The translations under genes and the position numbers were made by a program. A DNA stretch of 64,000 nt from an uncultured Granulosicoccaceae bacterium (lineage in GTDB: Bacteria; Pseudomonadota; Gammaproteobacteria; Granulosicoccales; Granulosicoccaceae): positions 1 to 64,000 of the forward strand of contig CALJNA010000044.1 of the NCBI GenBank assembly GCA_937981955.1. Direction: 5' to 3'. The notes under the pieces are model-generated. The model did not search any database. It saw only the letters and a list, made by a program, of their open reading frames with translations, and was not told where the DNA came from. Of the stretch, positions 40,917 to 47,410 are shown piece by piece (within the stretch, counting starts at the first letter, position 1; each line of letters opens with the position of its first letter).

Positions 40917-41105
40917 ATGAGTGACAAAACCCGTCACGATCATACCTTGCTGATTTTCTTTGCAGCTGTTTTCGTCTTCAATTCACCACTAACGAATTGG
41001 TGGTCTTTGATCGGCTTGCCCTGGTATGCCATTTTTGTTGTGTGGGCATTATTCATTCTTATTGCAGCTGTAAACCTGACTAGAGACACCAACGATGGGC
41101 GTTGA
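40917..41105 (+). CDS. CbrX-like small membrane protein
   Basis: 62 residues with two hydrophobic helices (LLIFFAAVFVFNSPL and WYAIFVVWALFILIAAV) and a charged end. Its stop overlaps the start of the symporter-kinase gene by 11 bp (41095-41105), which implies coupled translation. In Pseudomonas a small ORF named cbrX overlaps cbrA in the same way; this position and size match, but the sequence identity was not checked. Confidence 0.8.
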   Translation: MSDKTRHDHTLLIFFAAVFVFNSPLTNWWSLIGLPWYAIFVVWALFILIAAVNLTRDTNDGR

Positions 41106-44052
41106 ACTGTGGTGGTTGTTTGCAGCAGCCATCGTTTATTTAATCGTATTGTTTCTGGTCGCCTACTCGGCCGATAGCGGTCTGATCTCAAAACGACTGA
41201 TCAGCAATCCGGTAGTCTACTCACTGTCACTTGGTGTTTATGCAACATCGTGGACATACTATGGCAGTGTCGGTCTTGCAGACACCAGTGGTTATGCTTT
41301 TCTGAATATCTATCTGGGCGTTACCGGGGCTTTTTTGCTTGGCCCTTACATTCTCAAGCCCATACTAACTCTGTGCAGAGAATACCAGCTCACCTCCATC
41401 GCCGACTTACTGGCCTTTCGTTACGGTGGCAGAGGAACCGGCTTTGTTGTCACGCTATTTATGCTCATCGGCATACTGCCGTATATTTCCCTGCAAATCA
41501 GGGCCGTTACCGAATCCATTCAGGTACTGAGCAGACAGGTACCACCGGTGATCCTTGCACTTGTGTTCTGCCTGATGATAACGGTGTTTGCCATTTTGTT
41601 CGGTGCCAGACACCTTTCACCTCGAGAAAAGCACCATGGCCTGGTAGTCGCTATAGCGTTTGAATCAGCAATAAAACTACTGGCGTTACTGGTTGCGGGT
41701 GTGTTCGTCATTACCCAGGTTTTCGACTCACCGGCTGCCATGGGGGAATGGATTGCAACTAACGAGAACGCTGTCGCCGATTTATACACCCCAGCTCAAT
41801 CCGGCTTATGGTCAACCTTGCTATTGCTTGCGTTTTGTGCTGCGTTCCTGTTGCCTCGCCAATACCACATGACGTTTGTCGAAAACGAAAATCCAAAACA
41901 CTTAAAAACTGCTTATTGGTTATTTCCACTTTATCTACTGCTGCTAAATCTTCCGGTCATTCCAATCCTGTTCGCTGGCCGATATCTGGAGCTGAATATC
42001 GCACCCGATTTCTATGTGTTAGGCATGACCTTAAGTCTTGGTAAAGAATGGCTGGCAGTGCTGGTTTTTCTGGGTGGGCTATCCGCAGCCAGCGCAATGA
42101 TGATTGTGACATCACTTGCTCTATCGTACATGTGTCTTAATCACATATTGCTGCCAGCATCCTTATCAGGCACGCAGCCGACTGATTTCTACCGTCGTTT
42201 ACTGTGGAGCAAGAGAATCATCATTGCACTGATTATCGCTGCCGGTTACGGTTTCTATATTGTTATTGAACTCAATGAAGGTTTAGCCAGCCTCGGGCTC
42301 ATTTCGTTTGTCGCTGCGGCACAATTACTACCCGGCATGATTGGCGTGCTGTTTTGGCAGAGAGCCACGCAGGTCGGCTTTTTGGCCGGACTCATTGGTG
42401 GAGCACTTGTCTGGTTTACCCTGCTAATTTTGCCACTACTGGTTAGCGATGCGAACATTACTGAACTCATTCCAATCGATACAGACATATGGAGCTTGTC
42501 GACGTTCTGCACGCTGACAACAAACGCGCTTTTATTTGTGTTGGGATCGCTACTGAGTAAACCCACACTCGATGAGGTAACAGCAAGCCAGGCCGCCATA
42601 GAACAAACCAGCTTCGCCTTAAGCGCACCCTATACGGCACGTTCTGCCGGCCAGTATCTCTACGCCATGCAACAGGTGCTGGGCAACAAGGTTGCTCATC
42701 AGGAAATGAAAAGAGCTCTCGATGAAACCAGCCTTGATATGGATGAAACGCGAGCACCTGAATTAAGAGTGCTGCATGAAAGACTGGAACGAAACATCAG
42801 TGGACTTGTCGGGCCAACGCTTGCCCGTTCCATTGTTCGACAAAACCGCCACGGCCTCGATTCAGATGCGGATTCGCAAGATACCCGATTGCTGGAAATG
42901 CGCCTTGAAGCATCACGCGAACAAATGCGCGGTATGACCAAGCAGCTGGATGATCTGCGTCGTTACCTTCGCGATGTACTGCACCAATTGCCTCTGGGCG
43001 CATGTTCTATTTCGTCTGATGGCAGTGTTTATTTATGGAACTCTGCCATGCAATCGTTAACCGGGATAAGTGAACGCGTAGCTCAGGGCTCCGTCATCTC
43101 CGATTTGCCCGCTCCATGGAATACCTTGCTTGGAGAATTCACTGAATCAGCTGAAAATCACCGCTTCAGCTATCAGGTCTCAAGACACGGCAAGCTTGCT
43201 TCGGTTAATCTTCATAAGGCTGACATAGGCACACCGGCAAACACAGACGATGCGTTCGCCGGCCAGGTCATTTTAATGGAAGACCGAACAGACTATGACA
43301 CTCTTGAAGCCGAGTTAGCACACAGCGAACGTCTCGCCTCCATTGGTCGACTCGCCGCTGGGGTCGCACACGAAATTGGTAATCCGCTAACCGGCATTGC
43401 CAGCATCGCACAAAATCTGGTGCACGATGCCGGCCAGGCTTTGGAAAATAACGACGACGAAGAAGTCGGCGAGCAAGCGACCGACATTTTGAATCAGGTC
43501 GGCCGAATAAACAGCATTGTTCACTCACTGTTGACGTTCTCTCACGAAGATAAAATCTCTGGCTCTTCATTTGATAGCGTGCTGATTAACCAAAGCGTGC
43601 AAGAGGCCGTAAGGCTGGTCAAGCTCTCTGACCAGTCTAAATCGATCGACTTTGATGTATCAGTGCCTTCTGACATTGAAGTATCCGGCGACGCTAACCA
43701 GTTGGTTCAGGTATTTGTAAATCTGCTCAACAATGCCTGCGATGCGTCGCCCCCAAAAGCGACAATTCGCATCACCGGTTCAGTACTGGACGAGCAGCTT
43801 ACGATTGCAGTTGAAGATAGTGGCGCAGGTATTGACCCATCTATCAGCGAACAGATATTTGAACCTTTCTTCACAACAAAATCCGTTGGCAGCGGAACGG
43901 GCTTGGGATTGTCTTTGGTTTACAGCATTATGTCCAGACACGGTGGTCGTGTCCGTATTGATGAGCAATACGAGCATGGAACTCGAATCGTGCTGACGTT
44001 GCCTGTCGCAGACTCCAATGATCAACCATCAGCTCAGGCTCATAGCTTATGA
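41095..44052 (+). CDS. CbrA-like histidine kinase with sodium:solute symporter domain
   Basis: 985 residues. The first ~490 residues form a 12-13 helix SSS (PutP-like) transporter. A STAC-type linker (about 520-580, SAGQYLYAMQQVLG), a short coiled coil, a PAS-like segment, HisKA (VAHEIGNPLTG, phospho-acceptor His759) and HATPase_c (NLLNNACDAS, DSGAGI, GTGLGLSLVYS) follow. All kinase motifs are intact. It should couple uptake or binding of a small solute to phosphorylation of the regulator encoded next (4-bp overlap, 44049-44052). CbrA of Pseudomonas, which also carries histidine transport, is the best relative; CrbS is the other SSS-kinase type. Confidence 0.88.
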   Translation: MGVELWWLFAAAIVYLIVLFLVAYSADSGLISKRLISNPVVYSLSLGVYATSWTYYGSVGLADTSGYAFLNIYLGVTGAFLLGPYILKPILTLCREYQLTSIADLLAFRYGGRGTGFVVTLFMLIGILPYISLQIRAVTESIQVLSRQVPPVILALVFCLMITVFAILFGARHLSPREKHHGLVVAIAFESAIKLLALLVAGVFVITQVFDSPAAMGEWIATNENAVADLYTPAQSGLWSTLLLLAFCAAFLLPRQYHMTFVENENPKHLKTAYWLFPLYLLLLNLPVIPILFAGRYLELNIAPDFYVLGMTLSLGKEWLAVLVFLGGLSAASAMMIVTSLALSYMCLNHILLPASLSGTQPTDFYRRLLWSKRIIIALIIAAGYGFYIVIELNEGLASLGLISFVAAAQLLPGMIGVLFWQRATQVGFLAGLIGGALVWFTLLILPLLVSDANITELIPIDTDIWSLSTFCTLTTNALLFVLGSLLSKPTLDEVTASQAAIEQTSFALSAPYTARSAGQYLYAMQQVLGNKVAHQEMKRALDETSLDMDETRAPELRVLHERLERNISGLVGPTLARSIVRQNRHGLDSDADSQDTRLLEMRLEASREQMRGMTKQLDDLRRYLRDVLHQLPLGACSISSDGSVYLWNSAMQSLTGISERVAQGSVISDLPAPWNTLLGEFTESAENHRFSYQVSRHGKLASVNLHKADIGTPANTDDAFAGQVILMEDRTDYDTLEAELAHSERLASIGRLAAGVAHEIGNPLTGIASIAQNLVHDAGQALENNDDEEVGEQATDILNQVGRINSIVHSLLTFSHEDKISGSSFDSVLINQSVQEAVRLVKLSDQSKSIDFDVSVPSDIEVSGDANQLVQVFVNLLNNACDASPPKATIRITGSVLDEQLTIAVEDSGAGIDPSISEQIFEPFFTTKSVGSGTGLGLSLVYSIMSRHGGRVRIDEQYEHGTRIVLTLPVADSNDQPSAQAHSL

Positions 44053-45350
44053 ACAGAATACTGGTGATTGACGATGAGGAGATAATCCTCAAAGCGTTAA
44101 CAAAGCTCCTGGAACGCAATCACTTCGATGTGACCACTGCGCGAACGGTAGAGGAAGCCCTTGCATCACACCCACAATCGTTCGACCTGATTCTTGCAGA
44201 CTTACGCTTACCCGGCGTTGAAGGTACGGATATTATTCCACTGGCCGATCCGATTCCCGTGGTTATCATGACCAGCCACGCAAGCGTCAGGTCTGCCGTT
44301 ACTGCCATGCGTTTCGGTGCAATCGACTACATTGCCAAGCCGTTTGATCACAATGAATTACTACTGATCATTGAGCGTTCATTAATGCAAAATCGCATGA
44401 GAGCGCAGAACCAATCGTTAAAGCAAGACCTTAAAAGACTTGTACCATCAGACAATATTGGCCAGTGTCGAGGGTTGAACAATATTGTTGAACAGCTTAC
44501 CGCTCTGGACAAGGACAATCTTTTTGTTGCGCTGTATGGAGAGCCTGGTACCGGAAAAGAGTTACTCGCACGTGTGGCACACAATAACAGTGAGCGTTGC
44601 GATGCACCATTCGTGGTTGCAGACCTGCCAGCGATGCAACCGGAGCGCATTCACACAACGCTATTAGGTGGTGAAGCACCAAAACCTGATGAGGATTTCA
44701 TGCCGGGTGGTTTATTGCATACCGCACATAATGGCACGTTGATCATCCGCCACCCTGCTGTTATTCCTAAGCAAGTACAACTTGCTCTTGCGCAGGTACT
44801 CGAAGAACGGACTGTGCCCGGCAATGCCGGGGGTCGTTCTATTAATGTCAGAACCATTCTTGTTAGTGAAGAAAGTTTGCAGCAACAAGGCGACAACGGC
44901 TCACTGCAACCTGAGTTTGCAAACCTGTTTAATACCAGCGAATACAGCATACCGTCACTACGCCAAATACCAGAAGATATTGTTACTCTGGCCGAGCACT
45001 ATTTGCACTACTACGGTTTGCATCATCATCGGCCGAACATCAAGTATTCTCTCGATGCAAAAGCTGCTTTAACTGCCTATCGCTGGCCCGGCAATAACGA
45101 TGAATTGAAATCTCTGGTGCAGCGGGCCGTTCTTCTATCATCAGATAATCAAATTAGCCCAAGCGATCTTGGATTAACGACAGACTCCGGTGAAACCTAT
45201 CAACACGATTTAAGTCTGGACGAGTATTTTCGCTTTTTCGTTACCAGGCATCAGGCGAAACTATCCGAAACCGAACTCGCAAGTCGACTTGGGATTAGCC
45301 GCAAAGCGCTGTGGGAACGGCGTCAAAAAATGCAATTAGTGCGCGAATAG
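44049..45350 (+). CDS. NtrC/CbrB-type response regulator with degenerate AAA+ domain
   Basis: 433 residues. The receiver is intact: acidic pocket Asp8/Asp9, phospho-acceptor Asp51 (ADLRLPG), Thr75, Lys97. The AAA+ domain keeps Walker A (GEPGTGKE, 164-171) but the sigma-54 contact loop GAFTGA is absent (residues ~207-220 read GGEAPKPDEDF and on), and the Walker B acids are replaced (GTLIIRHP, Arg234-His235). The C-terminal Fis helix-turn-helix (ETELASRLGISRKALWERR) is intact. It probably binds DNA and responds to the kinase but cannot hydrolyse ATP or activate sigma-54 polymerase. Encoded 4 bp inside the kinase end. Confidence 0.88.
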   Translation: MNRILVIDDEEIILKALTKLLERNHFDVTTARTVEEALASHPQSFDLILADLRLPGVEGTDIIPLADPIPVVIMTSHASVRSAVTAMRFGAIDYIAKPFDHNELLLIIERSLMQNRMRAQNQSLKQDLKRLVPSDNIGQCRGLNNIVEQLTALDKDNLFVALYGEPGTGKELLARVAHNNSERCDAPFVVADLPAMQPERIHTTLLGGEAPKPDEDFMPGGLLHTAHNGTLIIRHPAVIPKQVQLALAQVLEERTVPGNAGGRSINVRTILVSEESLQQQGDNGSLQPEFANLFNTSEYSIPSLRQIPEDIVTLAEHYLHYYGLHHHRPNIKYSLDAKAALTAYRWPGNNDELKSLVQRAVLLSSDNQISPSDLGLTTDSGETYQHDLSLDEYFRFFVTRHQAKLSETELASRLGISRKALWERRQKMQLVRE

Positions 45351-45413
45351 TCATAAATTGACGTGCTATTTGTTCTTATATTTCAATAGTTTATTTACCC
45401 AGCCACAGGGTAT

Positions 45414-45441
45414 TTGACACACATTACGGTGCAGGTAAACT
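45414..45441 (+). promoter_or_regulatory. Putative sigma-70 promoter of acs
   Basis: TTGACA (45414-45419) and TAAACT (45436-45441) with a 16-bp spacer lie 31 bp before the acs ATG. The -35 is perfect, the -10 matches four of six. No -24/-12 (GG-N10-GC) element was seen here, in keeping with the neighbouring regulator lacking sigma-54 motifs. Confidence 0.5.
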
Positions 45442-45472: not shown

Positions 45473-47410
45473 ATGTCCGAAGGTAAAACCTACCCGGTTT
45501 CCACAGAGTTTGCAGAATCAGCCCATGCCGACAAGGCGAAGTACGACGAAATGTATGCCCAATCAGTCGATAATCCCGACGAGTTCTGGGCGCAACAGGC
45601 TGAAGAATTTATAGACTGGTTCAAGCCCTGGGATAAGGTTCAGGAATGGGATTTTCACAAAGCCGATATTGCCTGGTTCAAAGGCGCCAAGTTAAACATC
45701 TCCTACAACTGCCTTGATCGACATCTTGAATCAAGAGCAGATCAAACTGCCATTATCTGGGAAGGCGATAACCCGGAAGAAGATCGCCACATCACATACA
45801 AAGAACTACACGATGAAGTCTGCCGTTTCTCAAATGCGTTAAAAGGTATCGGTGTAAAGAAAGGCGATCGCGTCTGTATTTACATGCCCATGATTCCAGA
45901 AGCTGCTGTCGCCATGCTCTCTTGCACGCGCATCGGTGCAATACATTCAATTGTGTTTGGTGGTTTTTCACCTGATGCGCTCAAAGATCGAATCAACGAT
46001 TCTGAATGCTCGGTCGTGATTACAGCCGACCAGGGTTTGCGTGGTGGTCGCACAGTACCTTTAAAAGCGAATGCAGACACTGCGTGTGAACAAACTGACA
46101 GCGTCAAGCGCATGGTTGTTGTCAAGCGCGGTGGCGAACCGGTTGAATGGAAAGAAGGTCGCGACTTGTGGTATCACGAACTGGTTGAAGCTGCATCGAA
46201 CGACTGCCCTGCTGCAGAGATGGATGCAGAAGATCCACTGTTTATTCTTTACACATCTGGCTCTACCGGCAAACCAAAAGGTGTACAGCACACCAGTGGC
46301 GGATATATTCTTCAAGCTGCGATGACGCACAAATATATATTCGATTACAAAGACGGCGACATCTATTGGTGTACCGCTGACGTTGGCTGGGTTACCGGTC
46401 ACTCTTATATTGTGTATGGACCGCTGGCCAATGGTGCAACCACCATGATGTTTGAAGGCATTCCAACCTACCCCAGTGTTAGTCGCTTCTGGGAAATTAT
46501 TGACAAACACAAAGTCAACACATTCTATACCGCACCTACAGCGATTCGCGCGCTCATGGCGCAAGGCGACGAGCCGGTCAAGTCAACAGACAGAAGCTCA
46601 TTAAAACTGCTGGGTACCGTTGGCGAACCCATCAATCCGGAAGCCTGGGAGTGGTACAACAATGTGGTTGGTGACGGACGCTGCCCTATTGTTGATACCT
46701 GGTGGCAGACAGAAACCGGTGGCATTCTAATCTCACCTCTACCAGGCGCTACAGATCTGAAACCCGGCTCGGCAACCAAACCGTTTTTTGGCGTGGTACC
46801 GGCACTCGTCGATGAAGAAGGCAATATTCTTGAAGGCGCCACATCCGGTAATCTGGTTATTACTCGCCCATGGCCTGGCATTATGCGCACGGTCTATGGC
46901 GATCATAAGCGTTTTTACGAAACTTACTTTCAAATGTACCCGGGCTACTATTTCACTGGTGACGGTGCACGGCGAGACGAAGATGGCTACTACTGGATAA
47001 CCGGTCGAGTTGATGATGTACTCAATGTTTCCGGTCACCGACTGGGAACTGCAGAAATCGAAAGTGCATTAGTGCTGCACGACGCCGTTGCCGAAGCGGC
47101 AGTTGTCGGCTATCAGCACGACATTAAAGGACAAGGCATTTACGCCTACGTCACGTTAATGAGCGATCAGGAACCAACTGATGAATTGCGTGCTGAGTTG
47201 GTAAAACACGTACGATCAGAAATAGGCCCAATTGCCACACCGGAAGTTATTCAGTGGGCACCTGGCCTGCCGAAAACCCGTTCGGGCAAAATCATGCGAC
47301 GCATATTAAGAAAAATTGCCGAGAACGATGTCAGTAATCTGGGGGACACTTCAACGCTTGCCGACCCGGGCGTTGTTGACGGGCTTGTTGAGAATCGCGC
47401 TAACACCTAG
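45473..47410 (+). CDS. acs: Acetyl-CoA synthetase
   Basis: 645 residues, AMP-forming. Activates acetate via acetyl-AMP. Core motifs: [15 protein letters not shown] (P-loop-like A3), TWWQTETGG (A5), [21 protein letters not shown] (A8 hinge), and [11 protein letters not shown] with the acetylation-controlled lysine. Cytosolic, acetate scavenging. It lies 122 bp after the degenerate regulator with its own putative promoter, suggesting that the upstream symporter-kinase system controls acetate or carbon use. Confidence 0.97.

Follow-up and report, generated by a model that had tools for sequence, protein, structure and literature searches.

A CbrB-type response regulator of Granulosicoccaceae with a degenerate ATPase domain and its operator at promoters of a changed class

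The window, a 64,000-nucleotide stretch of DNA from an uncultured Granulosicoccaceae bacterium, belongs to a 4.34-Mb MAG with an estimated completeness of 77%. Positions 40917-45350 carry a syntenic cbrX-cbrA-cbrB arrangement that is followed by acs. The features of this region are as follows.

40917..41105, + strand: small 62-aa cbrX-like membrane ORF that overlaps the cbrA start (assigned as an ORF and by its Pseudomonas parallel)
41095..44052, + strand: cbrA, sensor kinase, 985 aa, with a multi-helix membrane N-terminus, PAS, HisKA and HATPase
44049..45350, + strand: cbrB, intact ORF of 433 aa, response regulator of the NtrC type whose AAA+ domain is degenerate (predicted pseudo-ATPase)
44049..44414, + strand: CbrB receiver domain, residues 1-122, with Asp51 and Lys97 intact
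44538..44561, + strand: CbrB Walker A, GEPGTGKE (164-171), intact in the window
44670..44711, + strand: position of the CbrB L1/GAFTGA loop (208-221), now GEAPKPDEDFMPGG; its length is hypervariable in Granulosicoccaceae
44748..44753, + strand: Walker B acids of CbrB replaced by Arg234-His235
44898..44963, + strand: CbrB arginine-finger region (284-305), both arginines lost
45090..45107, + strand: CbrB sensor II (348-353), GNNDEL, Arg lost (canonical GNVREL)
45261..45338, + strand: CbrB Fis-type helix-turn-helix (HTH; 405-430), near-identical to that of intact CbrB
45414..45441, + strand: sigma-70-type acs promoter, TTGACA-N16-TAAACT, with the -35 at 45414-45419 and the -10 at 45436-45441
45473..47410, + strand: acs, acetate-CoA ligase, which adjoins cbrB in most, not all, family genomes

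A small ORF, cbrX, likewise overlaps the cbrA start in Pseudomonas (PMC8871633). The catalytic boxes of CbrA are intact, as evident by the H-box HEIGNP, the N-box and GTGLGL. Its N-terminus yields no Pfam SSF match, and the identity of this portion was settled instead by a match of the N-terminal 582 residues to a solved histidine kinase (10ed_A, 491 bits). The cbrA gene is conserved in 42 of 48 Granulosicoccaceae genomes, where xseA-dksA-gluQ-cbrA-cbrB-acs is the common gene order, and dksA-gluQ-cbrA-cbrB recurs in lineages outside the family such as Balneatrix. The window cbrB is syntenic with gluQ-cbrA and has its cognate kinase, and its product is 68-71% identical to the CbrB proteins of named Granulosicoccaceae relatives. 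Searches of the window against Rfam gave no match, and no viral relatives were found.

The first-pass annotation described this CbrB as a regulator that keeps its receiver residues, Walker A and Fis helix while its GAFTGA loop is replaced and its Walker B acids have become Arg-His, and each of these observations proved accurate. In the alignment, the GAFTGA columns read PKPDE, and the Fis helix, ISRKALWERRQKM, matches that of intact CbrB. Two further losses had gone unmentioned, namely those of the arginine fingers, where the segment reads PEFANLFNT rather than the canonical FREDLYYRL, and of the sensor-II arginine. The protein matches PF00158 weakly (63.6 bits), in contrast to the 232-256 bits obtained by four intact activators of the same genome. 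An AlphaFold model (pLDDT 90.9) resembles NtrX and NtrC1, and the AAA+ domain is therefore predicted to be a folded pseudo-ATPase. The same genome encodes another NtrC-type regulator (L130:6817-8187; genome G000, contig C48) that has no GAFTGA and carries a degenerate Walker A, GEPGSGRV; it is possibly NtrX-like.

The changes in the window protein are characteristic of the family. Among 40 distinct Granulosicoccaceae CbrB orthologues, GAFTGA and Walker B are lost in every one, with Arg at the Walker B Asp position throughout, the arginine-finger pair is kept by none, and the sensor-II Arg survives in one. Asp51 and Lys97 are invariant in all 40. Losses common to all orthologues reflect neither recent decay nor a sequencing error between 44650 and 44760, the two alternatives that had been raised in advance, and no intact orthologue occurs in this set. 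An orthologue survey had been expected to reveal conserved loss of both motifs alongside a conserved Walker A. The first expectation held and the second did not, as 22 of the 40 proteins have Arg in place of the Walker A Lys and 18 keep the Lys, as does the window protein. ATP binding therefore does not appear to be a family trait. For close pairs, dN/dS is at most 0.17 in the receiver, AAA+ and HTH wherever it can be computed, many pairs being saturated at synonymous sites. The rpoN gene is present in nearly all relatives. It was not found in the window's own MAG, plausibly because that genome is incomplete, and we reject rpoN loss as the cause of the CbrB change since the family retains the gene.

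A tree built on the receiver, lid and HTH places the window protein, with its CbrB-type HTH, inside CbrB. The pseudo-ATPase group, which comprises Granulosicoccaceae and a small family (f52) whose CbrB has decayed only in part, forms a single clade (96/73) nested in intact CbrB. The proposal that the protein descends from a sigma-54 activator and is still paired with an intact kinase is supported. A second CbrB clade, from family f142, has the GAFTGA loop deleted but retains Walker A, the arginine-finger pair and sensor II; its Walker B reads DE or DQ (loci L168, L173-L178, L188-L196, L203, L213-L215 and L226-L230); DQ occurs in five of its members. One further genome, G114, has GAFQNA in place of GAFTGA. 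A single common origin of all GAFTGA-less CbrB proteins is disfavoured by the AU test, for which p = 0.064 falls short of firm rejection. These proteins form a graded series that runs from intact, through loop deleted with the ATPase kept and f52 partly decayed, to the complete loss in Granulosicoccaceae, and its existence makes the order of losses and the need for ATP testable.

Lineages with intact CbrB carry the Pseudomonas CbrB operator, TGTTAC-N5-GTAACA, together with a phased sigma-54 box; TGTTAC and GTAACA are the published consensus subsites of Pseudomonas CbrB (PMC6296734). We scored sigma-54 boxes at a match of at least 9/11 in the 350 bp that follow cbrB, and found them in 32 of 60 intact loci, 1 of 21 loop-deleted loci and 0 of 43 pseudo-ATPase loci. 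Fisher tests gave 6e-5 and 4e-10 for the loop-deleted and pseudo-ATPase contrasts, respectively, values that come from related and hence non-independent sequences. The f142 contrast is also partly confounded, as the downstream gene differs. CbrB subsites lie upstream of 27 of the 32 boxes in the intact group, compared to 2.3 expected. The association between the state of the protein and its cis-acting sites comes from two or three independent losses, a number too small to support a tree-aware test.

Several other observations concern these lineages. The distance from operator to sigma-54 box downstream of cbrB is mostly +67-70, +78-81, +91-92 or +102 (L236, L141, L170, L144, L172 and other intact loci), and these classes, about 11-12 bp apart, suggest helical phasing. 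A CbrB operator also occurs just before the cbrX-like ORF (L311, L312, L314, L246 and L247, position 1501; genomes G236, G098, G395, G140 and G260). This placement is seen in f52, loop-deleted and intact genomes and not in the window, and suggests autoregulation. Finally, a syntenic cbrAB pair that has both the Pseudomonas operator and a sigma-54 promoter is widespread in families of Gammaproteobacteria other than Pseudomonadaceae (L138-L165 and L168-L236), where it often adjoins acs, an actP-like transporter gene or a DUF294/CBS gene. CbrAB has been described as exclusive to Pseudomonadaceae (PMC6296734, PMC8871633), and this distribution suggests that the system is not confined to that family.

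In Granulosicoccaceae, operators were located by pattern search and homology with a cut-off of at least 11/12 matches, a score reached by 0.17% of shuffled controls. They lie upstream of a periplasmic-binding-protein gene (Peripla_BP_6) at 28 of 30 loci and of a second acs at 8 of 10 loci. The architecture of 37 promoters of these two genes is strikingly regular. A TATAAT-like -10 has its best match at +122 to +126 from the operator in all 37, and this match is at least 5/6 in 33 of them, compared to 11% of shuffled sequences. An IHF-like site of at least 8/9 is present in 30 of the 37 promoters (7.3 expected), of which 27 place it at +66 to +69. The -35 match equals that expected by chance in these promoters (2.54 versus 2.57), and no sigma-54 box is found in operator-bearing promoters of the family. 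When divergent upstream regions are aligned, the invariant columns are conspicuously those of the operator and the -10. This architecture does not differ between genomes that keep the Walker A Lys and genomes that have lost it, and ATP is therefore probably unnecessary.

The clearest evidence that a promoter has switched class is provided by the binding-protein gene. In G201, which encodes an intact CbrB, this gene adjoins cbrB; the same operator precedes it, and an 11/11 sigma-54 box stands at +80. In G001, G006 and G015, the gene and its operator still lie downstream of the pseudo-ATPase cbrB. Orthology across the putative switch is drawn through a single intact genome, G201. In the leader of the binding-protein gene, shortly past the predicted transcript start, we also note a conserved inverted repeat of approximately GGCACA-N5-TTGTGC (L252, L254 and L274; alignment A3, columns 181-197) that has no Rfam match and may serve as a further operator or form a hairpin. 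The promoter loci as a whole likewise gave no match to Rfam.

A search of the window's own MAG turned up neither the binding-protein gene nor a second acs with an operator, again plausibly owing to its incompleteness; the one exact operator in that MAG lies inside a coding repeat. Exact operators are no more common across Granulosicoccaceae genomes than in a reversed control, and the regulon therefore appears to be small. Other exact operators in these genomes are mostly intragenic and lack the -10 and IHF spacing, and we treated them as chance occurrences. The acs gene adjacent to cbrB is not claimed as a direct target, as it has a good promoter of its own and no operator. The cbrB-acs interval of the window genus contains no CbrB operator, the acs promoter has no sigma-54 box, and its TTGACA-N16-TAAACT sequence is conserved in close relatives. 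An IHF-like AATCAAN4TTA also precedes this first acs (window positions 45380-45400, with one mismatch; L117, L118 and L122), at a variable distance from the acs -10.

Taken at the level of sequence, these comparisons show that the input of the system and its operator have been kept, that the ATPase and the sigma-54 contact have been lost, and that the promoter class has changed. The prediction of a changed output logic is supported. We consider it likely, with a probability of roughly 60%, that Granulosicoccaceae CbrB is a pseudo-ATPase response regulator that acts, probably, as an ATP-independent sigma-70 activator with IHF at promoters without a -35 element. CbrA would phosphorylate CbrB, and a dimer or small oligomer of CbrB would bind TGTTAC-N5-GTAACA (candidate site CGTTACTTTTCGTAACA). 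IHF may bend or loop the stretch that separates the operator from the promoter, and CbrB would recruit or stabilise sigma-70 RNA polymerase at the -35-less promoter. The expected outcome is activation rather than repression, and ATP hydrolysis would not be used. The promoter architecture is consistent with activation of the sigma-70 holoenzyme by CbrB. We give about even odds to a specific evolutionary account, in which the circuit of operator, IHF bend and phospho-regulator switched in situ from sigma-54 to sigma-70, the ATPase was lost altogether, the -24/-12 element of the same gene gave way to a -10 at fixed spacing with no -35, and an IHF loop allows ATP-independent activation from a site about 125 bp upstream.

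The first-pass annotation had left open whether the protein is a repressor or a sigma-70 regulator. CbrB could be a phospho-regulated repressor or anti-activator that uses the old operators and IHF to form a repressing loop at sigma-70 promoters. Some Pseudomonas CbrB targets are indeed repressed (PMC6296734), a GAFTGA-less NtrC of Caulobacter represses some promoters (PMC10274813), and an operator just before cbrX, as seen in loop-deleted, intact and f52 lineages, is suitably placed for repression. However, the operators of the family lie far upstream (about 115 bp from the -10), their spacing to the IHF site and -10 is fixed, and the conserved promoters, having no -35, would be weak when unaided. 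These facts make repression unlikely and favour the sigma-70 activator.

A different possibility, in line with the ATP binding proposed in the first-pass annotation, is that ATP is bound and left unhydrolysed, as in NtrC of Rhodobacter capsulatus, and thereby drives oligomerisation and sigma-70 activation. ATP binding, not hydrolysis, is reported as needed by that protein (PMC10274813), and the window protein shares an intact Walker A with the 18 orthologues noted above. We judge such a switch improbable, and ATP binding as a working principle was not supported by the survey: in more than half of the orthologues Arg has replaced the Walker A Lys, the promoter architecture is the same with either residue, and all or nearly all orthologues have lost Walker B, the fingers and sensor II. 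It also seems very improbable that another regulator uses the operator-IHF-promoter module while a degenerate CbrB is vestigial or works chiefly through contact with other proteins. Each genome has few exact operators, and none was confirmed in the window's genome, but the operator is that of the published CbrB consensus (PMC6296734), the HTH is nearly unchanged from intact CbrB, and dN/dS is low in all three domains.

Our preferred reading, ATP-independent sigma-70 activation by CbrB, would make this system a comparative case of an activator leaving sigma-54, with joint change in the protein and its promoter and with the operator, the IHF site and the kinase retained. It also suggests that entire families of such proteins are wrongly annotated as sigma-54-dependent. 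Our literature search found no paper linking CbrB with Granulosicoccus, and among the titles of the three papers naming both CbrB and GAFTGA, none concerns a GAFTGA-less CbrB. The CbrAB system of Pseudomonas shares the kinase with a transporter-like sensor, the cbrX-like ORF, the NtrC-type regulator, the TGTTAC/GTAACA subsites and the IHF site between operator and promoter; there, CbrB drives sigma-54 promoters (PMC6296734, PMC8871633), whereas Granulosicoccaceae CbrB has lost the machinery for sigma-54 contact and ATP hydrolysis, and the promoters with its operator have a -10.

The NtrC proteins of R. capsulatus and Caulobacter also lack GAFTGA, are reported to act on sigma-70 promoters and depend on phosphorylation, but they keep the ATPase site, with ATP binding or Walker A and B, respectively, reported as required (PMC10274813). 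Granulosicoccaceae CbrB differs from both in having lost Walker B, the fingers and sensor II, and in its CbrAB-type kinase and operator. VpsR of Vibrio cholerae, to which the window model has a fold match (PDB 7v2b), is GAFTGA-less, acts on sigma-70 promoters and is reported to be ATP-independent (PMC10274813, PMC3162934). VpsR responds to c-di-GMP and phosphate, whereas CbrB retains its cognate CbrA kinase and has an operator, an IHF site and a -10 at fixed spacing. Among other relatives of sigma-54 activators, HupR of R. capsulatus and TyrR and DhaR of E. coli are reported to be sigma-70 dependent (PMC3162934). All three differ from CbrB in their ligands, kinases and operators. IHF and a site far upstream are features of HupR as well, which would make it the nearest functional analogue. 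The window protein fits the trait of GAFTGA-less sigma-70 regulators, as its receiver and DNA-binding domain are kept; such regulators are already known, and the complete loss of the ATPase in a CbrAB-type system appears to be a new variation.
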